NCBI GenBank assembly: GCA_018105865.1
Contig: JACLAT010000047.1
Location: 399,001 to 463,000, forward strand
Direction of reading: 5' to 3'
Source of the DNA: Metaphire vulgaris
Taxonomy: Eukaryota; Annelida; Clitellata; Crassiclitellata; Megascolecidae
Length of the DNA stretch: 64,000 nt
Shown here: positions 7,601 through 61,963 of the stretch, piece by piece
Position numbering within the stretch: the stretch's first letter is position 1
Layout of the letters: every line of letters starts with the position of its first letter
Made by a program: the position numbers and the translations under genes
The notes under the pieces: generated by a model
Database searches by the model: none
Seen by the model: only the letters and a program-made list of their open reading frames with translations
What the model was told of the DNA's origin: nothing

Positions 7601-10600
7601 TGGCCGTTCGCTTCGCGTCGCCGTTCGCTTCGCGTCGCATTTCGCTTCGCGAAGCCTAAGATTCCAGAACGACCAATCAGAACGCTCACCCAGCCAACCA
7701 ATCAGAACGCTTGAAGGTAACGAATGAGAACATCACACAGCCAACCAATCAGAACGCTCACACAGCCAACCAATCAGAACGCTTGAAGGTAACAGACATA
7801 CAGAGCAAGGATCTTAATATTATACTAAAAAAAATGCTCGCTTCGCTCGCACTCGCTTCTCTCTTCGCTCGCAGTGCAGGCTCGCTTCGTTCGAGGTAAC
7901 GAATATTCCAACAAACAAATTAAACATTAACTGCTTACACAAATCGGGCCTAAATGTGCTCTATAAAATTAGCTTTAAGCGAAGCGTAACCGCGTCTTTC
8001 TAACGTTTATAACCGCTGAGATATAGGTGCTATACGAATCTCCTATTCACCATTCAGCGCTGCACAAACATGCATTTAATTTAACTAATAATCGATGAAT
8101 AATTAATTCCTTTGCAAGATACCCGGGGATAAAAATTTCAGGAATCGATAGAAACGTAAGGAATGATAAAAGGGACCTTTAAAGTTTAAAGTACTAAACG
8201 GAACATTTGAAACTCATAATGCTAATCTATAGGGCATGACGTTGCACATTTGCGTCAAATTGCGGTAGATTTCCGTAGCTATGCAAAAATCTCATAATGT
8301 TAATCTATAGGGCATGACGTTGCACATTTTCATGAAATTGCGGTAAATTTCCGTAGCTATGCAAAAATCTCATAATGCTAATCTATAGGCATGACGTTGC
8401 ACATTTGCGTCAAATTGCGGTAGATTTCCGTAGCTATGCAAAAATCTCATAATGTTAATCTATAGGGCATGACGTTGCACATTTCCATGAAATTGCGGTA
8501 AATTTCCGTAGCTATGCAAAAATCTCATAATGCTAATCTATAGGGCATGACGTTGCACATTTGCGTCAGATTGCGTTAGATTTCCGTAGCTATGCAAAAA
8601 TCTCATAATGTTAATCTATAGGCATGACGTTGCACATTTCCATGAAATTGCGGTAAATTTCCGTAGCTATGCAAAAATCTCATAATGCTAATCTATAGGG
8701 CATGACGTTGCACATTTGCGTCAGATTGCGGTAGATTTCGTAGCTTACGCAATTTCGCTAGAATATACACTGGCTTGTAGTGCAGGCTCTAGAGAGATGG
8801 GGAGAGGGGTGGAAGAGGGATGGGGAGAGGGGGTGGAGGGAACGGGTTGGTGGAGGGTTGGGAGGGGAAGGGGTTGGGAAGAGGGGTGGAGGAAGGGGGT
8901 TGGGAATGGGTTTGGGGCGGTTGGGAGGAGGGAGGAAGGGGTTTGGAGTGGGATGGTGGAGGGTTGGGAGGGGAAGGGGTTGGGAAGAGGGGTGGAGGAA
9001 GGGGTTGGGAATGGGCTTTGGAGAGGGATGGTGGAGGGTTGGGAGGGGAAGAGGGTTGGGAAGAGGGGTGGAGGAAGGGGGTTGGGAATGGGTTTGGGGT
9101 GGTTGGGAGGGGAGGAAGGGGTTTGGAGAAGGATGGGGAGTGAAAGAGGGTGGGGAGGGGAGGGGGGGGTTTGTTTGGGAGAAGGATGGGGGAGAGGGAA
9201 AGGAACGGGGTTTGAGCTGCAATTAAGACGCTTCGAACGCTCCGTTGATTAGAAAATAATAGACAATGGTTGTCAATGGCAACAGCCTCATGCACAGCCC
9301 AGGACAGAGGTTACGCAATTCGATTGTTACACAGTTTTGATTAAACAATAGACAATGGTTGTCAATGGTAACAGCCTCGTGAACAGCCCAGGACAGAGGT
9401 TACGCATTCGACTTCGCAACGTCGATTGTGACCAATCAGAACGCTTGAAGGTAACAGACAAACTGGACAAACAGAGCAAGAATCTTAATATTATAAATAA
9501 AAATGCAACGGCGAAAGTAACACGATGAAGCAATGTTATTCATTCATTCATTCATTCCTAGACAATTTCTATAGCGCTGTAACAAGGCTGAGGCCCACAA
9601 CAAAAGCGCTTTAACACCTCAATGTTAGACCAATGTTATCAGTCGGTAAACGTATACTTTAAAAAACAGCATAGTTACAAACGTATCGCGTGTCAAAAGC
9701 CTATTCCTTGATGTAGTTTCGCTGACCCATCACAGATCTCATTACAGCATTAGAAGCAGATAACGCATCCGTGCTTTTGACTTGTTTGCACGAATAATTA
9801 TTGCAAGCGTATACGAAAAGGAAATGACACAACTAATGGGAAAAGAAACCAAGGCACATTCAGGACTAGATGGACTGATAGCAGCATGCAATGGACTGGA
9901 AAGACAATGGAAATGGTAACCCGAATGAGAGACCTTCTTTCATGATGCGGTCTACCCTCGAGGCGAGGATGTTTGAACCAAAGACAAGACAAGAAGATTC
10001 CATCTTTGTTGATTTACTTCAGTTCCATAGCAGCGACCTACAAGCGGTTATGTTGCCTGCCCTTATGCTTTGCTGCAAATAGATTTATTTTTAAAATTTA
10101 ATAAACAGTCAGTCAATCAATAATTTATTTCCAAACAAACCCATTAGGCCTACATATTGTTGCAGGTTACATGTTGTTTCAAATTATTACAATACAGAGA
10201 AAAGCGCGTAACTTATGATATTTCAAACTTCATTGCAAAGTATATTATTGGAAATAACATGCTACAAAGGAACGTAAGTTCCCGCATGACAGTAGCATGC
10301 AAGTAATAATAAGAAGAGAATTTGTCTTTTGTTAATGTAGATGGAACAAATCCTTCCGTTCTTCGTTACGCGAGATTGAACATCTCGAAGAATGAAGAGT
10401 GCCATAAGCCCATTAATGTAAAAGAACCTTTATCGGCAAACATGATGTGTACCACGGACAACCAAGGGGACAACGCGCGGGGCGCGTATTTTGTGAGTAA
10501 CTGAATATTCAGTGTGGAACCAATAGTTGACTAGACTATTTCAATAGTATTGCCAATAGTTGAACTTAAACTTAACTTTAGAATAGTTTTTTCGATAGCC

Positions 10601-12699: not shown

Positions 12700-15680
12700 T
12701 AATAACAAACCAGTTCTAATGCTACAAGGAATCTGGCAATGGCCGCACTGGTAGTCCAAAAGATGTTCACAAGATATGTCAGAGTGGGTGGGAAAAGCAC
12801 CAACTGTAAGAAACACGTTCTAAGCCTAGATTTTATGGTACACCGAGGAACAAGTTTCAGATGTAAAGCTACTAAAGAAAACACTCACAACAAGTCTGCA
12901 AACTAATCAAACTGTTTAGAATACTAAAGCTGGAGTATAGAATAAACAGAAAAAGATACAATGCACATTAAAAGTCAATAAACACATTCTAGCCGTCCGA
13001 ATACCTCTCAAAAGAAGGGTTTCATCTCACCTCTTGGAGAATGACCAGGGGTTAATTTGAGCCGGATCTTGCCGGATCTGCGATCCGGGACGTCGGGTAA
13101 GAGATTCTGAACGTACTTTATTCGTTGTAATCTTTTACTTTTTACTTTAGCACTTTACATGCACGAACGGGAAAGAAAAGACGTGAACTGTACTCTATAT
13201 GTTCGTTTAAAATTAATAAAAAAATTGTGAAGAAATTCTGCGACCGGAGGGAAAATAAGGAGATCCGGTACCTCTGGAAAAGTAATTACGACTGGTAGAC
13301 AATAGGAATAATAGTAAGATCTTTTCGTGGATTTTGATAAATAGTTCATGGTGTTATAATTCAGTACACTATACACTCGAAAATAGCAATGGCAAGTGAT
13401 GTTGAACGTACAAGATTGCTGCAGTAGTGAGTTTCAATGAACACTTTCTTTAGGTGCTTGAATGAAGTTCATTTTTGAAAACTTTTGGTTACCACAAAAA
13501 TTGAACGGTGGGTAATTACCAGACATCGGTTTGAATATATGTATGTTTTTAAAACGGCGATTGTAATTTCACGCTTTCGTCGGGTCGGGTCGCGATGGGT
13601 TGGGTTGGGTCCGCAGACACAAATTATGTGTGGGTTGTGTTGGATTAGGACGTGGGTGGGTTGGGTTTGGGTTCAAAAACCGACCCATGGACAACTTTGC
13701 GTAGACTACGTTTCTTTTATCTACCGAGTGCTAATTATTAGGTGTTATTGCGCAACGAGACCTCTAAATAGGTCAACACACTCGAATTACCAGTCAAGCA
13801 TGTGTACTGGCTAAGGATTGGGAAGCCGTTAAATTCAAAGAGTCTGCAATAAGTATATCTGAGCACTGGAACTTCACGCGAATTTACCCTAAATTTAAGA
13901 CAAATAATTATTGATGGTGTCCCTATTCTGAAACCTCGGCACTGTAACTACGCCAATGCTATGCGCAACAATATCACGAAATTATTACTAGTCACTCACT
14001 GGCATTACCATGAAATGTTCACAAGAATGACACGATGTTAATAATATCGCGATATTATCAAAAACTTTTAACGCGGACAAGAAATATTTATCAGCGTCCG
14101 TTATCTTCATCTATTGATTTGAATCTAAACTTCTACAGAACCACTTCATAACGCATAGGCCTACATTATACTCACACACATACATACTGTACATACATAG
14201 GCTAGATAAAAATGGCACACGAAATCACAATCACAGACGGTCCAAGTCAAATCCAACATTTCAGACCGAAGACAATCAAATCTACAGTCTACGGTGGATA
14301 AGGTAAGTGAATAAATAAGTTTTGAATCTTGTTCTAAAATTTGACTAGATTACCTGGATGCACTGGCGTCTACTTGCATAAAGAAGTGGGGGATTGAACT
14401 CATATACCTTTTTCTTTCCTGTGATAAGCTTACAAACAGTGAGAAGGTCCTCGACTGCTCGAGCCTATTGGCCAAATAGAAGTTTACGTCTATACGTAAA
14501 TGATTCTCTTAAGACAACGATAAGATCAAAAGCCACTCGATGCTGAAAATTTGTGTATGTGCTAAAGGTAACCTCTGTGTTTGTGTTTGTGTGTATGCGT
14601 ACCTTCTGCTGTATCTCTTGACTGAGCTCTGGTGGACACAGTATGTTTAACTTCTGAGCTGCAGTCTTTGTCGTTTCCCATTCAACACGCCAGGTTTCGA
14701 AAACGGATAATACTGCAGTAGCGGAATAGAAACAAATTTTCTGGAAATCTGATTTTTTTTTCTTTAAAAGTCGATTGGTAATTGGCCGGATAAAAGAAGC
14801 GAGAGAAAGAGAAAAGGGTGAGGAGGAGACCTGAGAAGACGCCACGTGACCTAGGGTGAAGCCGCGATTGAAGAACCAGACGTTACTTGGGTTTTTGTAG
14901 AAAGATCAACCGCGACCCTTTTCCCAAAGTCATCATTTTACCGGTTCAGCAATTAGCGGAGAAGGAGGATGACTGAATCGCTATTATAAAGGAAAACCAC
15001 GACGCTATTATAAAGGAAAACTCAACTAAGGTGGGTCAGACCTCATTTAGTAACAATAAAAAGGTTATAAGGAGCGCTGCACTAAAGCATGTGCAGTGTA
15101 CCAGGGATATTATTTACAAATTTTGAGAGATGACGCTCAACACATGTGAAGAGGATCTAGTGATAATGGAATTATCAGATTTCTTAGGTAGACTATGTAT
15201 GGAGTGAGTTATAAGTCATCGATATTATTTTATATTCAATGCGTTCTGTTATTTTGAGCCAGTGGAAAGATCCAGAGTAACAATAAAAAGGTTATAAAAG
15301 CGCTGCACTAAAGCATGTGATAGTCAACGCTCAACCTGGGTAAAATCCAGTCTGCAATCCAGAGTTCGTGATAATCAAGTAAGTAGATCCAGGTAGTCAA
15401 CGGCGTATACATTAAGAAGTTCTGTCGCTGTAAAAACGGCGATGTCCTCTGATCAGAATTGCTAGAACCTCTCGATGAAGCTTTATTAACGCGTGTTCAA
15501 TGTATTCATACGAAATTAGTAATTTTATCATGTGCGCAGACGAAACAATAATCAAAGAATGGAAGTTAATCATTAAGAAAATGAAATTTGTTCATCTGTT
15601 TGTTGCACAGCAGCTGTTTTGTCTTTTGCGATGATGTCCCTAACTGCTACAGTGAATACCACGGTCAAATTACAGTGAAA
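12700..15680. other. Non-coding stretch with one possible minus-strand exon
   Basis: A GGGTTGGG-type pentamer run lies at 13575-13690. On the minus strand about 14606-14715 is flanked by a good acceptor (pyrimidine tract, ctactgcag) and a GTACGC donor; it is open and would encode SVFETWRVEWETTKTAAQ followed by a Pro-Glu-Leu stretch. I do not recognise it. A roughly 45-bp direct repeat (aacaataaaaaggttataa...) occurs near 15050 and 15276. Nothing else is supported. Confidence 0.3.
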
Positions 15681-15689
15681 CACTTTTGA

Positions 15690-16010
15690 ATTAGAAAATT
15701 TCCATTTTCGCCTTGAAAACCTGGATTTGCCGTAAAATGTATAAGCTTAATCTTCTAATTTCAATTGGAATAAAAAGAAGTCTGACGGCAACCATAAAAA
15801 GGCAGCTTCCACCTTCCTCAGACACATAACGAGGAAGGAAACCCTGGAGCATTTGGCAATATAGGGGGGAAATGGAGGAAAATAGCTCAAGAAAGACAGA
15901 GAAACACATATGTATACTGCCTGCGAGAAGGAAATGAGGGAACAAAGAATAATAGGCCTATTGAATTAATTATATATCAAAGTGAAAATGAAAGTCGCGA
16001 ACGTAGAAAC
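15690..16010 (+). mobile_element. LINE 3' fragment (family also at 53690-53960)
   Basis: The stretch from aagtctgacggcaaccat to ctggagcatttggcaata closely matches 53697-53785, where the translation reads like a LINE C-terminus. It ends with a cgaacgtagaaacacacaac tail shared by both copies. Truncated. Confidence 0.65.
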
Positions 16011-16166
16011 ACACAACATTTAATGAAGAAAAGAAGTATAATATTCACATACATGTTCATTTATTTTAAATTCATGTATTTTCAACATCAGTTCTCACTG
16101 TGAAATACGCATACATTTTCGTAGTACGTGCAATCACCTATCTCGAGATGTCACGAGTGTTTTGAA

Positions 16167-16721
16167 TTACTTGTATGCGATCTCGCACAGACTTGCGATC
16201 AATAGTTTTCGATCAAAACGTTCCCAGAGTGGATCTGGAGCTGGCAACTGGTATGAAGACTCGGAAATATCATTTGATGTGCAGCGATATAGCGAACAAG
16301 CTTCTTTACATAAACTGAGAAAGGTAGATCTGTCATCAGCAATCCATTCAACGGAAACTTGTTTAAAATAATTATTATTAATTATTGGAGAACTGAAATT
16401 CGGCAGAAAATAGCACGGACAGAAATCCTGTGCAACAAACTCAAGACGACATTTCAAAAGGCACTTCAACCACAAATAACGATCCATTTGATGGAATTTG
16501 GATTTCATTTCTTCAAGACTCAATCCCAGTTTAGATGCTTTCTCAGAAGAAGGCGATAATGCTTCAATGCAATACAATAAACAATTCTTCAAAATGTATT
16601 GGGAAACATCATGCTTCAACAGTTTAGTCACCATCTTCGCGATCATATAAGCTTCTCTTGCATTGTCACAACTCTTTTTAATGATGTCGCTCTCAGCTTT
16701 GGAAAATGAAATCCTAGCAAT
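16167..16721 (-). CDS. C-terminal half of the Mab-21/cGAS-like domain (separate block)
   Basis: An open minus-strand block starting near 16721 translates as ARISFSKAESDIIKK, then KSCDNAREAYMIAKMV and YILKNCLLYCIEAL, and stops at 16167. This is the standard second half of a Mab-21 domain (the rISFs.aE segment followed by the helical lobe). It continues where the 16924-21069 frame breaks off: that frame ends with ARISFSNAM plus six residues. So it is either the last exon of the same gene or its severed 3' end. A 247-bp intron (16943 down to 16697, donor ATGC|GTGTTA, acceptor CCAAAG|CT) would restore frame, but the donor is weak. Confidence 0.6.
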   Translation of the reverse strand: MARISFSKAESDIIKKSCDNAREAYMIAKMVTKLLKHDVSQYILKNCLLYCIEALSPSSEKASKLGLSLEEMKSKFHQMDRYLWLKCLLKCRLEFVAQDFCPCYFLPNFSSPIINNNYFKQVSVEWIADDRSTFLSLCKEACSLYRCTSNDISESSYQLPAPDPLWERFDRKLLIASLCEIAYK

Positions 16722-16789
16722 ATTTCGTTGTTATGGCAACAGCGTCTTGCAATGTATATATCGAGAATTATATAATAAGATTGAGAACT

Positions 16790-16970
16790 GACCGACAGCA
16801 ACAAACTCAAGACGACATTTCAAAAGGCACTTCAACCACAAATAGCATCATTTGATGGAATTTATATAATAAGATTGAGAACTGCAATACAATAAACAAT
16901 TCTTCAAAATGTATTGGGAAACATCATGCTTCAACAATAACACGCATTGCATTGGAAAATGAAATCCTAG
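16790..16970 (-). repeat. Deleted partial duplicate of the Mab-21 3' coding sequence
   Basis: This stretch repeats pieces of 16360-16720 (the tgatgtttcccaatacattt block, the cttttgaaatgtcgtcttga block and others) with internal deletions. At two junctions it carries the filler gttctcaatcttattatata (near 16770 and 16865). It introduces the stop that ends the long ankyrin frame. It looks like a templated, multi-switch local rearrangement rather than a simple tandem duplication. Confidence 0.75.
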
Positions 16971-19900
16971 CGCAAGATTCCGAATATGGAACCCAGGGAT
17001 ATAGTTCTTGAGAACCAGCAAAGATCAAATTGCAACCGAACTTCTTTATGTCATCGCTCACATTGGATATGGCTTCATCCGGCCACCAGTCATCAATATG
17101 AATACAAGGAACAATGTCTACTGAAATTTCATCGACAGTAAAAAAAATTAGAGGCTTAATCATTTTAATGCTAAACACTTTCTTTATATCATCATAAATA
17201 CAGCTGTCTTTTTCCGACAATCCAAAAATCCACTCGAAATTCTGTTGCCTCTCAATATTAACCAGGGTGTCACATAAAATTGTTGTAAATTGCCTATTAA
17301 TTTTTACAGTATTTAATATTCCATTTTTTCTAAAGAAACTGTCAAAATCACTTGTTTCGTCTGCTTTTGTTGGCCTTCGCTTTAGACGAACAAATCCAGT
17401 GGGAAGTTCTGGAGACAGAGAAACTTCGCAAAGTTCACTGATCTTTGTAAGAAAAAAACAAAAATCGAATTCATCTGGTTTGTCAAGTCTTGTTCCTTCA
17501 TTACAGCTCCCAACAAGGATTGGTTTGATTTCAAATCTCGGATCCAGTCTTTTAATTTCTTTGGCAATGGCGTCCATGAAACTAATCACTTCTTTGGTTA
17601 TTTCTTCGACTAAAGGATGACGAAATGCATATTTGCCATTTTCCCATTGTGCTTCAACTTCAGTTTTGAGATTAACTTCAGATGCTCTATTTTGAGAATC
17701 AGGCCACAAAACACTTATATTCATTTGCCTATTATTCATTAGTCGAACAAAATACGTCTTATCTTTTTCATCTGTGATGGTTGTAACTGCACCAGACCCC
17801 TCTGATGTTTGGTGAATCGCATAATTTCCGTCTTTATCTTTAATTGAGGCATCGGCTCCTTTAGATATAAGTAATTCCCAAAACGTTTTGTTTGCGTAAT
17901 GCAATGGAGTGCGTCCGAAATTGTCAGTTTCGTTGACACTGCAACCGAGCGAGATCAACTTATCAACAATTATTGTTTTCATCAAATCCATTTCGTAAGG
18001 ATAACGCGCTGTCGGAACATCATAGAAAGAAATGGCAACCAAATGCAAAGCTGTTCTTCCCTGTTCGTCTTTGCCTGATACTATTTGCTCTTTAGATGCT
18101 TCGATTAAACTCTGAAATTTGCCTTTATCGAAACTTGAATGTAAGCTACCAAATGTCTTTACCATTTTAAAGATTTGTTTCAGAGTCAACTTGCATGTAA
18201 AATCCAGATGAAAATAATCACTTGTTGACGGCGATTCTGTCTCTCGGAAAGCGTTCAAGACAGCTCCTTTCTTTTTCAAAGAATCTTTAATTGATGACGG
18301 AATTTCTGAATTCTTTCCTTCAACTATATCCAACGGCGAAAATTTTTCAAAGCTTAATGCATTCACATCTATATCTGATCTTCCAAGCAACATTTCAACT
18401 ATTTCACTTCTCTCATCGCTCCAATCTGTATCTCTCCCGATATAGCCTTCATGCCTTTCTGCTTCGAATAAAATGACCATTTGTTTTATATTTTTTATTT
18501 TCTTCAATTCTTCATAATTCCGCGGAAATTCAAAATCTTCATTAATATTTATATGTAAAGCATAATGGAGGGCAGTAAACCCAAGATGATCTGATAAATT
18601 CACTGATGCGCCTTTATCTAGGAGCAATTCAACATCATGCGAACGATGTAACAATATTGCATGCATTAAGGCCGTTCGACCATCACAATCCACAGCGTCC
18701 AGACTCACCAACGTTCCCGCCTCTTCCAATATTTTCTGCAAAGCTGGAGATCTTGCTCTACCCCATTTTTTGGAAATAGGCATTAAGGCTGTCCTTCCTT
18801 CATTGTCTTTTCTATTGACATCTGCACCATAATGAATGAGTAATGAAATTAATTTCCCCACTTCAGCCCAATTTATCTCTTGAGCCCAATGTAGCGCTGT
18901 TCTCCCATTTTTATTTCTAGCATTCACATCAATGTTTCCAGATTTCAAAAGTAGCTCGAATAAACGCAGCCTTCTATCATCGCCGACTTTCGATCCGTGA
19001 ATGAGCCGATAAAATGATAAATGACCTGTTTCAATCTCTTGACTTAAAAGAATGTCATAATCCAAAAGAAGTTTTAGAATTTCGTCTGAATGATTTGTAT
19101 CATTTCCCATTGCTATGTACACGGCCTCTAACCAGACATCAGATTTTTTTTCCCAATTTACTTTCAGTGATAAAGATTTGCTATCGATGGTTTGATCCGT
19201 GTTCCACGATTTCAAAGATATATCTAATGTATTACAGAACTCGGGCAGTATGGATTTGACAATGTCTGAAATTTTATCTTTAACTGCCGATATAAATTTA
19301 AATTTTAGCAAAGCCAAAACAATTTCATACAAATTCTTTTCTTTCGCTTTCATCAAAGCCGTTTTACCAGAATTATCTACAGCTTCGATGTTAAGAACAA
19401 ACCCATGTGAAGCCAAATCTAATAAACTGCGAACAATGTCAATATGTTTATATTTGCATGCAAGAATCAAGAATGTTTCTCCATTTTTGTTACTACCATT
19501 TAAATCAAGTCCATTTTGGAGAAGTATCTGCAGAAGACCGTCTATTTTGTAGTTGTATTCGGGCTTTATTTTACAAACGATTTCAAAAATGGTCTCATTC
19601 TGCAAATTCAAAACTTTTGCATTGAATTTCCAGAATTTTAATAAAATTTCAGCTCTTTTCATATTTCCGACTAAAATACTATATTCCAAATATTCTGCCA
19701 CAACTTCATAAAAAGTAGTTATCTCATATTCATTAAATTCCAGAAGATAATGATCATCTTTCAGCATTGCGTCTTCGTTTTCATCTTTAACAGCTGATAT
19801 TATTGTCTTTCCTAACAAAGCCCCAACAATTTTTGAATCATTATTTCTTTTCGCTTTCATTAAAGCAGTTTCACCAGAATTATCTACAGCGTCGATGTCA

Positions 19901-21069
19901 AGAACAATTTTATCTTCAGCAGATCTTAATAAACTGCGAACAATGTCAACACGTTCAATTTCTGCAGGGGTCATAATGAATTGTTCTCTGCTGTTGTTTT
20001 CGTCGAAGTCCAGAAAGAGTTTATGTAAATCCAATTTTAATAAGCTGCGAACGATGTCATAGCGTTTATTTTCACAAGCAAGCATCAAAAATGTTTCTCC
20101 GTTTTTGTTTCTACTATTTAAATCAATACAATTTTCGAGAAAGATCTGAAGAAGTTCGTCTATTTGGCTGCAGTGTCTTGGCTTTATTTTACAAACGGTT
20201 TCAAAAATTGTCTCATTCAGAAAATTCAAAACATTTGCATTGTATTTAATGGATTTTAATAAAAGTTTTAGTGTTTTTGTCTTTTCTGAAGAAATATCAG
20301 CTTCCAAATATTCTGCCACATTTTGGTCAAGAATATTTTGACCATCTTCATTAAATCCGCGAATAAAACGGTCATCACTAAGCAGCAGATTCTCCATTTC
20401 GTAATGATCATAGTGTTGCGCTATAGTAACAGCCTTTAACCAAACCGACTGAGTGATTAAGTCTTTTGAATGGAATTTTGTTTCAAAACCAGCTTTGAAT
20501 TCCTTTGGTGGAGGGCCTTCGATTAGATCATCCTCAGGAGATTGCATTTCCATTTGCTCGTATTTATGATTATGATGATCATTAAGAATATCGGTCTTTG
20601 CGCGACAATATAGAACTTCGAAATTGGATTCTTCTGGAGTAACATAGGCTTTGACTCTCTTAGTGTCACCCCTTTTAACTGCTCTTAAAAATAAGTTCTC
20701 TATTATTTCTGCATTGTTTGACTGTTTAGCGATCGAAAGAGCAGTTTCTCCGTTTTCATCTGCGCGACAAAGTAGAACTTCGAAATTGGATTCTTCTGGA
20801 GTAAGATAGGCTTTGACTGTTTTAGTGTCACCCTTTTGAACTGCTCTTAAAAACAAGCTCTCTACTATTTCTGCATTGTTTGACTGTTTAGCGATCGAAA
20901 GAGCCGTTTGTCCGTTTTCATCTCTAGCGTTGATGTCTACTCTTTCGCCGTCATAATCTCTCCATTGCAATATTTTACGAACAGCAGCGACGTTTCCAGT
21001 CTTACATGCAATAATCAGCGCCGTTTGTTTGGGTGAATTTCTTTCAGGCCTACTCGTTCTATTCCCCAT
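16924..21069 (-). CDS. Ankyrin-repeat protein fused to a cGAS-like (Mab-21) nucleotidyltransferase
   Basis: A single long open frame. I choose the Met at 21069 because MGNRTS fits the N-myristoylation rule (Gly2, Ser6); an upstream in-frame Met at 21150 gives a poor 27-residue extension. Length is 1381 aa. Residues about 10-1130 are ankyrin repeats (GxTAL....., DVNARNKNGRTALHWA and others), with a 54-aa repeat present twice near the N-terminus and a roughly 210-aa module present twice around 220-640. The C-terminus is a nucleotidyltransferase: GS at 1187-1188 in VGSCNEGT, E1200 and D1202 in DEFDF, and third acidic residue D1318 in SVDIVP. These match the G[S].. E.D ... D metal-binding set of cGAS and cGAS-like receptors, so catalysis is possible in principle. 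The domain is cut after ARISFS by a local rearrangement; its remaining part is at 16167-16721. By family knowledge these enzymes make cyclic dinucleotides on sensing nucleic acid; ligand and product here are unknown. A decayed paralogue is at 28965-29898. Confidence 0.8.
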   Translation of the reverse strand: MGNRTSRPERNSPKQTALIIACKTGNVAAVRKILQWRDYDGERVDINARDENGQTALSIAKQSNNAEIVESLFLRAVQKGDTKTVKAYLTPEESNFEVLLCRADENGETALSIAKQSNNAEIIENLFLRAVKRGDTKRVKAYVTPEESNFEVLYCRAKTDILNDHHNHKYEQMEMQSPEDDLIEGPPPKEFKAGFETKFHSKDLITQSVWLKAVTIAQHYDHYEMENLLLSDDRFIRGFNEDGQNILDQNVAEYLEADISSEKTKTLKLLLKSIKYNANVLNFLNETIFETVCKIKPRHCSQIDELLQIFLENCIDLNSRNKNGETFLMLACENKRYDIVRSLLKLDLHKLFLDFDENNSREQFIMTPAEIERVDIVRSLLRSAEDKIVLDIDAVDNSGETALMKAKRNNDSKIVGALLGKTIISAVKDENEDAMLKDDHYLLEFNEYEITTFYEVVAEYLEYSILVGNMKRAEILLKFWKFNAKVLNLQNETIFEIVCKIKPEYNYKIDGLLQILLQNGLDLNGSNKNGETFLILACKYKHIDIVRSLLDLASHGFVLNIEAVDNSGKTALMKAKEKNLYEIVLALLKFKFISAVKDKISDIVKSILPEFCNTLDISLKSWNTDQTIDSKSLSLKVNWEKKSDVWLEAVYIAMGNDTNHSDEILKLLLDYDILLSQEIETGHLSFYRLIHGSKVGDDRRLRLFELLLKSGNIDVNARNKNGRTALHWAQEINWAEVGKLISLLIHYGADVNRKDNEGRTALMPISKKWGRARSPALQKILEEAGTLVSLDAVDCDGRTALMHAILLHRSHDVELLLDKGASVNLSDHLGFTALHYALHININEDFEFPRNYEELKKIKNIKQMVILFEAERHEGYIGRDTDWSDERSEIVEMLLGRSDIDVNALSFEKFSPLDIVEGKNSEIPSSIKDSLKKKGAVLNAFRETESPSTSDYFHLDFTCKLTLKQIFKMVKTFGSLHSSFDKGKFQSLIEASKEQIVSGKDEQGRTALHLVAISFYDVPTARYPYEMDLMKTIIVDKLISLGCSVNETDNFGRTPLHYANKTFWELLISKGADASIKDKDGNYAIHQTSEGSGAVTTITDEKDKTYFVRLMNNRQMNISVLWPDSQNRASEVNLKTEVEAQWENGKYAFRHPLVEEITKEVISFMDAIAKEIKRLDPRFEIKPILVGSCNEGTRLDKPDEFDFCFFLTKISELCEVSLSPELPTGFVRLKRRPTKADETSDFDSFFRKNGILNTVKINRQFTTILCDTLVNIERQQNFEWIFGLSEKDSCIYDDIKKVFSIKMIKPLIFFTVDEISVDIVPCIHIDDWWPDEAISNVSDDIKKFGCNLIFAGSQELYPWVPYSESCARISFSNAMRVIVEA

Positions 21070-21379
21070 GTCAAAGCCTCTCCGTTTACGATATCGTTTA
21101 TATTGGAAGTCGGCGCAATTCGTGTATTTTATATTCGTTGCAACGTACAAGTGAAGACCCGATCTTTAAAAAATATTTAGATATTACATAATATAGGCCT
21201 ACACAAATATTTTACTTTACAAAAAGAATATTATTTAACAGAATACGATATTCAAAACTGTGTATTTTGCGTTTTCCTCCCAATACCTTTTAGCTACTTG
21301 AATGAATTTAACGTATTTTAGATTCTTTAGAAAGTAAACTTCTTTGGGATACTACAGAAAGCACAAGAAGTTCAGAATC

Positions 21380-22049: not shown

Positions 22050-22560
22050 ATAAGTTGTCAATTATAAATAGATAAATAAAGTGTCCTCCTTTCGCTCGCA
22101 TGCATTTGCACAGTCGACACCGTCACTGGCAGCCGCGTTAGACGCACTCCTGCTAAATTCCCAAAATTTCGTAATCCGCAGGAATGAGATCTGGACTATT
22201 TGGAAGCCAATTTGCAGGACCAATGCAGTCTGGTGTCTCAGCTGCCAGCAGTGCAACCATATCACGAGCACGATGGGCTGGTGCGTTGTCCTGCTGGAAG
22301 GTTAAGAATTGTTCGAACACAGAATTAATGACCGGCAGGAGATGCTCTTTCAGCAGCGTGTTTCGGTAGTACTCACCATTGATCTTTATACCAGGGTCTA
22401 TGAAAATCGATTTGGGGACCCAAGTGCCGAAACACCGACAGATACCATGAGGGATTTGGAAAACGTCGGACGTGTACGCAGAGGACGTGGGCATCAATAA
22501 CGACGTCATTTTCCGTCACATATATACGTCGTAATGGACAAAGAAAGTTTTGACCGCTTT
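22050..22560 (-). pseudogene. Mariner-type (DD34D/E) transposase fragment
   Basis: Minus-strand translation contains INGEYYRNTLLKEHLLPVI, FQQDNAPAHRARDMV and LPNSPDLIPADYEILG. These are the second catalytic Asp (QQDNAPAH) and third catalytic block (NSPDLxPxDY) of mariner transposases. Only about 120 residues remain, without terminal repeats I can identify. Confidence 0.85.
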
Positions 22561-28417: not shown

Positions 28418-28964
28418 CTTATACTGTATAGGCTATAGTAGACTACTCACGGATGTGTTATTCAGTATTCTCCTAACTTCCTACTTCCCAGATGCACGGC
28501 TTCGCGGCGTTTCTTTCCGGAACACGAAACCCTACTCGTGGATTACTGTACTAGGTAGCTGGACAGTCAACTGAGGCTAGCAGAATTTGACCCGAGCAAT
28601 AATTGCAAGCTGAAAAATCCAAAATTACGTGAAAATACACAGAACGCTGTATTTCTTCGGCCCTCTGATGTAAGGTACCATAGACAGTGTGCAGTCCACT
28701 TCATTTAGTAGTCCATGCCCTGCTTCACCTCGACTGTCTCACAACGACGAGTTGCTGCGAATTGTCTTACTCTTAACACGCCGCTTAACTCAACTGCTAG
28801 TGGCCGTTATCGACGTTTTCTGTGCTCAACATCGTTATCTAATCTCTAAAACGATTACCTCGCTTGGACCAATGCCTTGGGCGTAGCCAGGAATTTGATT
28901 TTGGGGCATAATGTGATTTTTTGAGGGGGTATAAATCTTAATTGAACTGCTTTTAAAATCGGAA

Positions 28965-29898
28965 AAAATAAATGCGAACGATAGAGATGCAGATGGGAGA
29001 ACAGCACTTCATTGGGTTGAAGAGGAACAATTAATTTCATTACCCATACGCTATGGTGCAGATGTCAATAGAAAAGACAACGAAGGAAAGACACCGTTAA
29101 TTTCTATGTCAGACAGGCTGAACATAGAAACATTTCCAGTTTTTAGGACACTATTGGAAGAGGCGGGTACTATGGTGAATCTGGACGAAATGGATTGTAA
29201 TGGTCGAACGGCCTTAATGCATGCGGTAATTTTGCATCGTTCGCATCATGTTGAATTGCTCTTAAAAATAAAGGCGAATCAGCCAATTTATCCGATTATC
29301 TTGGGTTTACTGCCCTCCATCATGCCTTAGGCCTAAGTGGAAGTATTAAGGAACATTTCAAGCATCCGCGAAATTTTGAAGAATTGAAGATAATGAAAGA
29401 AATGATAATTTGCTTCAATGCAGAACACCATGCAAACCGTGTCTGGAGAAATAAAGAAAAGACGGAAGACAGAAGGAATATTGTTGAAATTTTGTTGCAG
29501 AGACAAGATATTGATATGAATTTATTCAGCATTGACAAATTTTCACCTTTGGATATAGCTGAAGTTCATATTTTAGAAATTCCGTCTTCAATTAAAGAAG
29601 CTTTGAAGGAGAAAGAAGCGGTTTTAAACGTTTTCCAGCAGACAGAATCGCAGCCAACATGCAGGTTAAATTTTAAAAATCACTAAAACGGTAACATATC
29701 ACGAATGTTTATATTTTAATAAAGAGAGATGGATTGCTTTATTCGAGACATTTAAAGATCAAAACGACCAGCATGGAAGATCAGCTCTGCATTGGGCTGC
29801 CATTTCTGTATATTATTTTGCTTGCACACGTTTAATAATAGATTTGTCTACAAAAATAGTGGATAAGTTGATCTCACTCGGTTGCAGTGTCAATGAAA
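28965..29898 (+). pseudogene. Truncated paralogue of the ankyrin/cGAS-like gene
   Basis: Starts inside ankyrin repeats (DADGRTALHW, then YGADVNRKDNEGKTPL) and follows the order of the 16924-21069 protein: EEAGTMVNLDEMDCNGRTAL, LSDYLGFTALHHA, FSIDKFSPLDIAE, IPSSIKEALKEK, GRSALHWAAIS and KIVDKLISLGCSVNETD. There is a frameshift near 29268 and another break after 29686. It is cut off at NETD, before any nucleotidyltransferase sequence. Orientation is opposite to the long gene. 5' and 3' truncation plus frameshifts make it a pseudogene. Confidence 0.85.
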
Positions 29899-30129
29899 CT
29901 GACATGTTCACATCCTTTATTGAGTTTGTAAAAAAAGTAAACATGTGAACATGTCAAATGACACAAACACAAGTACTGTACAGTATACTGGTTTTAAAAG
30001 CCAAAACAAATGTATTATGAATGTCTATCACAATATTCATGCAATGCAACATATTAAAATCTTTAGTATTACATTAGGAGAAAATATTATGAAACACTAA
30101 CAACATACAGTAATCCATTAATTATCTGT

Positions 30130-48357: not shown

Positions 48358-48690
48358 TAGAAGGCTGCTCGTTTCTGCGCGTGCAGGATACTACTAATAT
48401 CTATCCACATCGCGCAATGCGAAGCAGGCTCGCTTCGCTTCGCTAGAGGCAATGAATTTTCAAGAACGACCAATCAGAACGCTCACCCAGCCAACCAATC
48501 AGAACGCTTGAAGGTAACCAATGAGAACATCACACAGCCAAGCAATCAGAACGCTCACATAGCCAAGCAATCAGAACGCTCGAACGCTTGAAGGTAACCA
48601 ATCAGAACGCTCACACAGCCAACCAATCAGAACGCTTGAAGGTAACAGACATACAGAGGAAGGATTTTAATATTATAGATAATAATAATA
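48357..48690. repeat. CCAAT-box dispersed repeat, second member
   Basis: Closely matches 7265-7820: actagaag-gctgctcg start, then six to seven copies of (c/g)caatcagaacgct, four of them with a full CCAATCAG box, and an end at ttttaatattata. The cgcttcgcg minisatellite of the other copy is absent. Confidence 0.75.
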
Positions 48691-60538: not shown

Positions 60539-61963
60539 CCCTCGGTACTTCATTCCTGAGGGACTTATGAAAAAAATTGTCCGGAGACATATAGAAATAG
60601 TGTGCTAACTCTCGTCCGGTTCGAGGCGTGGAAACGATCCTCGGAAGGCGATTACGTTGAAGCGTTGTAGTGTGACTGACAAACGCTGGAAGAGGAAACT
60701 GCCATCTCTTTTGTCTTCGGATTGTTGAGCTAACCGTCGACCCAGCTCGCGAAGAAAACAGAGAGCGTCGTTGTTGATGGGGCCTAGCGTCTCGAATGCA
60801 ATGGGCAGGAAGATGTACGTGGCTGCCAGATTTTGATATTTGGACGTTTTTCTGACAGCAGCGGCTTCTGCGGCGGCTCCTGCAGCGAGCGAAGTGGTGG
60901 GTAGGTATGTTGGAGCAACGGTGTCTGCTACCGTTGCGTCCCAGACAAGGCTTCGGCCGGCTTGCCAGGGGATCAGGGTCATGCCGCCTGGCCTTTTCCC
61001 ATCGGATCTAGAGAGACCATCCGGCTCCTTAATGGAAGGGATCCCTGCCCTGACTAAAGCCCTCTGGATCAGGTCATTCAACATGGAATGTCGAGGGACA
61101 CGGCCTAAACCAAGATGACTCGACAGCCCGTGCGAACCGTCTTCCGATACCTGGACGCCGCAAGGACAAAGATGTATCTCGCACAAGTTGACTCCGAGAC
61201 GGAGGCCAACGACGACTCTAACAGTCTCGTCATCCATGCGCAGGCCGCAGGCGGTTAATGGCAGCGCGTGCAGGCAATCGCTGGCGTGGTTTGCCGAGAC
61301 TGCTTTGAGTCGCGCTTGGTGATACTGTCCTTGGACTGTTTGGGACAAGGTGTTTATGTCCCTCTGAATTAACGGGCGGTCCCAGGTGTATTGCTTATGT
61401 AAGGAGTCGGAAGACGGTCTTGACTGCTGACTCAGGGAGCACCAATCATTCCTAACTCGGGCTTCATGAGTATCCATGCTCAGGCCTGCCTTTTCGAGGA
61501 TGGAGGACTGGAGAGGACGGGTGTGTGCAGCAGAAGCCAAGAAGGCAGAAGGTGCAAGCATAGACACCCGTCGGATCCCCAGGCCGCCGTCCCTGATTGG
61601 GAGTGTCGACTGAAGCCACTGACTGTCAGAGAGCTGGATTTTGAGCATCTTGTCTAGGCCTTCGCGCATGGTTGCGTCGAAGCGCTCTAGCAAAGGATGA
61701 CCAGCGCAGGGGGTGCAGCGCAATAGATAGAGCAGCTTCGAGTGGCTCAGAGAGCTCCTTAGAAGAATGAGGGCGTCCTGTCTTGGGATTGAACTTAGGC
61801 GACTGAAGGCCGTCTGTAGTTCATCTAAGCGACAGGACATGAGCGCCTCGAAAGCTGCTGCTACCTCTAGAGTTGCGCCTAGCAAAGTGGCGTCCTTGAT
61901 CTGGATCTCAAAAACTGGTCCAATACAGTCTTGGTCTTTGGTATTGGTTCCTGCATATAGCTT

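Follow-up and report, generated by a model that had tools for sequence, protein, structure and literature searches.

A long ankyrin array joined to a cGAS-like enzyme domain in Metaphire vulgaris, with a probably interrupted C-terminal lobe

In a stretch of 64,000 nucleotides (nt) of the annelid Metaphire vulgaris (contig JACLAT010000047.1, positions 399,001 to 463,000; the window, in whose coordinates all positions are given), the minus strand carries an animal-type gene in which a long ankyrin array is fused to the enzyme domain of a cGAS-like receptor (cGLR). The frame 16924-21150 is open, and its first in-frame ATG, at 21069, gives a product that begins with MGNRTSRPERN; the 27 residues ahead of it are a TTG-started extension of the same frame. 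On the 1,381-codon product Pfam finds Ank_2 (expectation value, E, 9.5e-66) and Mab-21 (PF03281, residues 1190-1378, E 6.1e-10, 39.9 bits against a curated cut-off of 24.1), which bears out a preliminary description of this DNA that had proposed an open frame joining an ankyrin array to a Mab-21/cGAS domain. The product has several ankyrin repeats and is thus an ankyrin-repeat protein. The more than 1100 residues of repeats given in that description are roughly right, but the 12 recognisable core motifs lie between residues 53 and 1052 and are followed by a stretch of low confidence. In the accessible part of PMC10732462 the Mab-21/cGLR superfamily is defined by clade and by the PF03281 domain; we assigned the window protein to it by the domain cut-off. 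The gene and the sequence beyond its stop contain the following features:

16927..21069, minus strand: frame open over 1,381 codons, covering the ankyrin array and the cGLR catalytic core, up to the stop at 16924-16926
21064..21069, minus strand: Met1-Gly2 of the first in-frame ATG, MGNRTS (reading frame and pattern check)
17821..21045, minus strand: ankyrin array, about residues 9-1083 (Pfam, motif count and predicted fold)
17617..17811, minus strand: low-confidence connecting stretch between array and cGLR domain, about residues 1087-1151 (predicted local distance difference test below 50 in the predicted model)
16948..17658, minus strand: Mab-21/cGAS-type nucleotidyltransferase core, residues 1138-1374 (Pfam, PDB, tblastn and fold matches)
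17506..17511, minus strand: GS motif, residues 1187-1188 (alignment; coordinates by arithmetic from 21069)
17464..17472, minus strand: metal-binding acids E1200 and D1202 (alignment)
17116..17118, minus strand: third metal-binding acid, D1318 (alignment)
16696..16971, minus strand: insertion region that shifts the frame by one (23-nt direct repeats and copied coding fragments)
16883..16936, minus strand: 54 nt that recur unchanged at 16568-16621 in the downstream coding piece (window self-comparison)
16798..16844, minus strand: 47 nt that recur unchanged at 16432-16478 in the downstream piece, within a longer match of 68 columns at 95.6% (window self-comparison)
16167..16721, minus strand: separated coding piece for the helix bundle (C-lobe), 184 codons in another frame with its own stop (tblastn and alignment)
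16019..16065, minus strand: two AATAAA/ATTAAA-type signals beyond the helix-bundle stop, starting at 16065 and 16024 (motif scan)

The GS motif and the three metal-binding acids, which the preliminary description had reported as kept, all align with the same residues in the relatives described below, and the window copy thereby has the residues that mark animal cGLR enzymes (after Li et al. 2023). A sequence-only search of PDB with the 205-residue core gave a single match up to E 1, the cGAS-like receptor 8gjw (Cv-cGLR1; E 2.7e-4). The structural homology is to the cGLR/CD-NTase enzymes, so that the proposed placement of the C-terminus is supported in both family and fold, and the nearest structures to the family are nucleic-acid-activated cGLRs and cGAS. 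The fold match of the window core to Cv-cGLR1 stops at chain residue 521, whereas that of a relative reaches 633. The structure model of the window protein covers residues 640-1381 (predicted template modelling score 0.44), and we do not interpret the placement of array against enzyme in it. The literal cGLR motif, h[QT]GS with the third acid 50-90 residues later (Li et al. 2023, PMC9980059; here and below, statements on this preprint concern the accessible part of its text), was tried for delimiting the family; the window reads VGS, with 115 residues before the third acid, and so departs from the literal form. We dropped this criterion, since the active Cv-cGLR1 (SGS, 99) and Sp-cGLR1 (KGS, 104) break it too; in the 8 proteins of the ankyrin-fused (ANK-cGLR) family that we measured, the spacing from the second to the third acid is 109-129. 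NCBIfam matches to the product were ankyrin-type plus a few unrelated ones, all below or far below their cut-offs, and were disregarded.

We retrieved 19 relatives, of which seven (P0001-P0007) are long fusions; many of the starts are possibly incomplete, and complete stand-alone cGLRs were few among the sequences obtained. They were aligned without the divergent P0019 (alignment A2) and also without P0006, P0007, P0011, P0012, P0014, P0016, P0017 and P0019 (A3). In P0001-P0005 and P0009 the conserved stretch PWVPYSxSCARISF is followed by the helix bundle in one frame with the core. In the window, on the other hand, the core is followed by the stop at 16924-16926, and the bundle is met only from about 16721, past the insertion and out of frame with the core. 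That 16167-16721 encodes the missing C-terminal part, as had been suggested, was confirmed by tblastn (16739-16188 against residues 920-1101 of P0001, 39% identity, E 1.1e-29). The idea that it joins cleanly, as a 3' exon, to the residues up to 1381 did not hold, as a frame-shifting insertion intervenes and we were not able to find a convincing splice pair. Because the bundle is out of frame behind the insertion, we file the window copy as an interrupted cGLR gene copy and not as a working enzyme; with the helix bundle only in another frame and the fold match of the core ending at 521, the copy as it stands would therefore be without the second lobe of the enzyme. Judged by its reading frames, the copy likely makes no working enzyme.

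Two 23-nt direct repeats (16949-16971 and 16696-16718, 96% identical) set a period of 253 nt; about 120 of the 230 nt between them match the downstream bundle sequence, and among the remainder is a 23-nt unit present in two copies inside the insertion. The 253-nt insertion looks templated, and we infer that it may have been made in an error-prone repair that copied a nearby template. For about 49 nt of it (16719-16767, minus strand) the rest of the window offers no match of more than 13 nt.

We calculated the identity to the window part by part (ankyrin array and core) for nine relatives. For P0001-P0004 the ankyrin part is 27-33% and the core 41-50% identical; for P0005, P0010 and P0013 the figures are 26-28% and 33-39%, respectively. 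The isoelectric point (pI) of the cGLR domain, calculated for 11 of the 19 relatives (P0001-P0010 and P0013, the last being short at its C-terminus), ranges from 5.09 to 7.32, that is, from acidic to neutral; the corresponding stretches of Cv-cGLR1 and Sp-cGLR1, calculated likewise, have 8.93 and 8.07. According to Li et al. (2023, PMC9980059), cGLRs that sense double-stranded DNA (dsDNA) or double-stranded RNA (dsRNA) have a pI above 8.5, while some acidic cGLRs, with pI values as low as 5.0, show activity when no ligand is added and may recognise ligands other than nucleic acid. Because an acidic-to-neutral cGLR domain is here attached to a long ankyrin array, the likeliest reading for the uninterrupted relatives is that a cue of protein type, received by the array, would activate the enzyme, which would then make a cyclic dinucleotide.

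Taken as a whole, we give a probability of about 0.53 to the following reading. The window holds an interrupted ANK-cGLR copy that has kept its metal-binding residues, has had its helix bundle severed by the 253-nt frame-shifting insertion and likely makes no working enzyme, whereas in the uninterrupted relatives binding of a ligand to the array, probably not a nucleic acid, is predicted to set off the release of a cyclic dinucleotide. In a working form, we picture the long ankyrin array as either silencing the enzyme or delivering it to its target. On binding of the ligand the GS activation loop would become ordered, and two nucleotides would be linked inside the two-lobed cage to serve a STING-type receptor; the role would presumably be an immune one, as in the cGLR literature. 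That the array serves for recognition or as a scaffold, as the preliminary description had it, is plausible.

Several observations weigh against this reading. Apart from the insertion nothing in the copy is broken: the 1,381 codons and the 184-codon C-lobe piece are open, and polyadenylation-type signals follow the latter. Such a state would suit a very recent lesion or else a working gene. The interruption may also reflect a missed intron or a fault of assembly, or an intact allele may exist beside it. In P0013 (632 amino acids, on a 3,407-base contig), homology is lost shortly ahead of the junction at which the window copy is broken, maybe at the end of an exon; such an end would bear on whether an intron is ancestral. 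The array is not always the less conserved part, since ankyrin part and core are nearly equal in P0007 (25% and 29%) and equal in P0006 (26% and 25%). In addition, the ratios of nonsynonymous to synonymous substitution rates (dN/dS) among the internal repeat copies of the array (0.84, 0.67 and 1.11) are near neutral and do not show positive selection. In the window the core alone has a pI of 4.84, but the separated C-lobe piece alone is basic (8.26), and the pI of a whole domain is a crude proxy, given that the dsRNA sensor Sp-cGLR1 reaches only 8.07, below 8.5. Finally, no member of the ANK-cGLR family has, to our knowledge, had its product measured.

The gene could be functional, with the 253-nt region being or lying in an intron and a transcript joining core and helix bundle. 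The open C-lobe piece, which is homologous to the helix bundle, and the polyadenylation-type signals behind it (none of this type was found between 16700 and 16930) would fit such a gene, and the point at which P0013 loses homology slightly raises the odds. We scored GT-AG pairs with consensus splice matrices that were not trained on this organism, scanning 215 GT sites. In the scanned stretch 28 pairs keep the frame open, and the best-scoring one uses a donor at 17061 (99th percentile); this donor, however, would delete the residues from about 1337, PWVPYSxSCARISF included, while the donors that spare this stretch (16943, 16941 and 16935) are in the 23rd, 60th and 9th percentile. No pair convincingly kept the conserved residues across the insertion. 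Since, moreover, pieces of coding sequence are copied into the insertion and the P0009 sequence, on a contig of 30,378 bases, runs gaplessly through this junction, we consider an intron unlikely. It is also rather improbable that the insertion is an artefact of assembly or sequencing and the real gene uninterrupted and active. An artefact is favoured by how closely the copied fragments match their source within 0.6 kb (54 and 47 nt without a difference, 68 at 95.6%) and by the lack of a further lesion in 1,381 + 184 codons; but only about half of the sequence between the direct repeats (some 120 of 230 nt) matches the downstream piece, the rest including the twice-occurring 23-nt unit and the 49 or so nt without a match beyond 13 nt, a pattern that looks more like templated repair than like a simple assembly duplication. 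Least probable of all, in our view, is that the truncated 1,381-residue protein works as an ankyrin scaffold or as a dominant-negative partner without enzyme activity. Its long frame is open, its ankyrin part is co-linear with that of P0004 (736 alignment columns, 33% identity), and P0013 ends near the same point, though it is maybe cut by the end of its contig or exon; on the other hand, the catalytic residues, needless for a pure scaffold, are kept.

As to the cue, the family could sense nucleic acid through the cGLR domain in the way of cGAS, with the array merely placing the enzyme. The nearest structures, being nucleic-acid-activated, point in this direction, but the pI range of the 11 relatives lies below the value above 8.5 given for nucleic-acid sensors (Li et al., PMC9980059), and we hold this doubtful though possible.

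The preliminary description had also seen a myristoylation-type start. MGNRTSR, at the first ATG, does fit a loose PROSITE-like N-myristoylation pattern, so that N-myristoylation is a possibility for the window sequence only. The suggested membrane attachment fared less well: Gly2 occurs in 0 of the 19 retrieved proteins, the seven long fusions included, although many of these may be N-terminally incomplete.

The array has been duplicated internally, and a further piece of it lies elsewhere in the window:

20599..20923, minus strand: tandem in-frame duplication in the array, two copies of a 162-nt unit, 92.6% identical (self-comparison)
20023..20384, minus strand: older in-frame internal duplication, 76.5% identical to 19405-19766 (self-comparison)
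19405..19766, minus strand: partner copy of the duplication 20023-20384 (self-comparison)
28938..29909, plus strand: decayed paralogous fragment of the array, about residues 703-1051 (in shifted frames; 1,051 aligned columns at 70% nucleotide identity)

The two older duplications (76.5% over 366 nt and 77.5% over 178 nt) are both in frame. The decayed fragment appears as a second broken copy of the family, inverted relative to the gene and about 8 kb away; between array and fragment dN/dS is 0.50, 0.66 and 0.57, and positive selection is not shown. We tentatively suggest, as a doubtful extension, that ANK-cGLRs might be guard-type immune sensors: a fast-changing, internally duplicating array would read a cue of protein nature, either an effector of a pathogen or a host protein under guard, and switch on the fused cyclic-dinucleotide synthase, which would have given up nucleic-acid sensing. 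The price of such arrays for the hosts would be copies that often break, as two have in the window.

In 6 of the 19 relatives (P0002, P0003, P0004, P0006, P0008 and P0012) we see a similar short C-terminal tail, for example SEVIYSRI, YEVIFRR, SEIIYKRC or DEVVYQRK; the pattern was fitted by eye. Possibly this tail is a docking motif of the family. It is absent from the helix-bundle piece of the window and from the three minus-strand frames of 14500-16166. A scan of viral contigs with P0001 only, which reaches close relatives and may omit records near the host, gave no match.

Elsewhere in the window, 30130-31590 (minus strand) encodes a 486-residue C2H2 zinc-finger array protein with 11 zf-C2H2 stretches, by appearance an ordinary animal zinc-finger gene. 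A fragment at 22153-22509 (minus strand) resembles a Tc1/mariner-type transposase, and a 426-residue frame at 60605-61885 (minus strand) looks like the C-terminal part of a non-LTR (long terminal repeat) retrotransposon protein; neither has a Pfam match up to E 0.01. Two arrays of one 25-nt unit (7672-7783 and 48469-48636), 41 kb apart, are perhaps borne by a mobile element. A satellite-like array of 78/155-nt units at 8213-8745, with matches up to 97%, adjoins a strongly G-rich stretch (8791-9139). An Rfam scan of the window at gathering thresholds gave no match.

In RNase L the ankyrin repeats bind 2-5A (2',5'-linked oligoadenylate), but the catalytic part of RNase L is a kinase-like/RNase module and not a nucleotidyltransferase, and ankyrin matches of such kind are generic. 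We know of no ankyrin array in vertebrate cGAS or MAB21L1. Cv-cGLR1 (8gjw) and Sp-cGLR1 (8gjy) share with the window family the fold, the catalytic layout and a long spacing from the second to the third acid (99 and 104); on the other side, they are activated by dsDNA or dsRNA and have basic domains, identity to 8gjw over the fold match is 20%, and the window family has a spacing of 109-129 and acidic-to-neutral domains. Mab21L1/2/3 are without a predicted functional active site (Li et al., PMC9980059), whereas the window family keeps the residues. While the preliminary description knew of no animal cGLR with an ankyrin architecture, such fusions are already in print (Li et al. 2023, PMC9980059), and we rejected the notion of an undescribed architecture. 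Ankyrin and death-domain fusions occur there among three Stylophora pistillata proteins, and the ankyrin-fused cGLRs, like the window protein, combine ankyrin repeats and a cGAS-like nucleotidyltransferase with a kept active site in one protein (PMC9980059). The window copy differs in being interrupted, and its array is about 1,080 residues long; the comparison with their 3,020 enzymes was made by description. In the literature searched, with the supplementary tables of Li et al. outside its scope, we found no description of the charge pattern of ankyrin-fused cGLRs as a group or of the interrupted copy.

As the window copy is interrupted, its uninterrupted relatives are the better starting point for experiments. 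Most of the activated cGLRs on record respond to foreign nucleic acid. cGLRs that sense something else, a possibility that Li et al. (PMC9980059) raised for acidic ones, may be sought in a conserved family that pairs a long ankyrin array with an acidic-to-neutral enzyme domain. If true, a repeat-based recognition array would be linked directly to the synthesis of a nucleotide second messenger in one chain.
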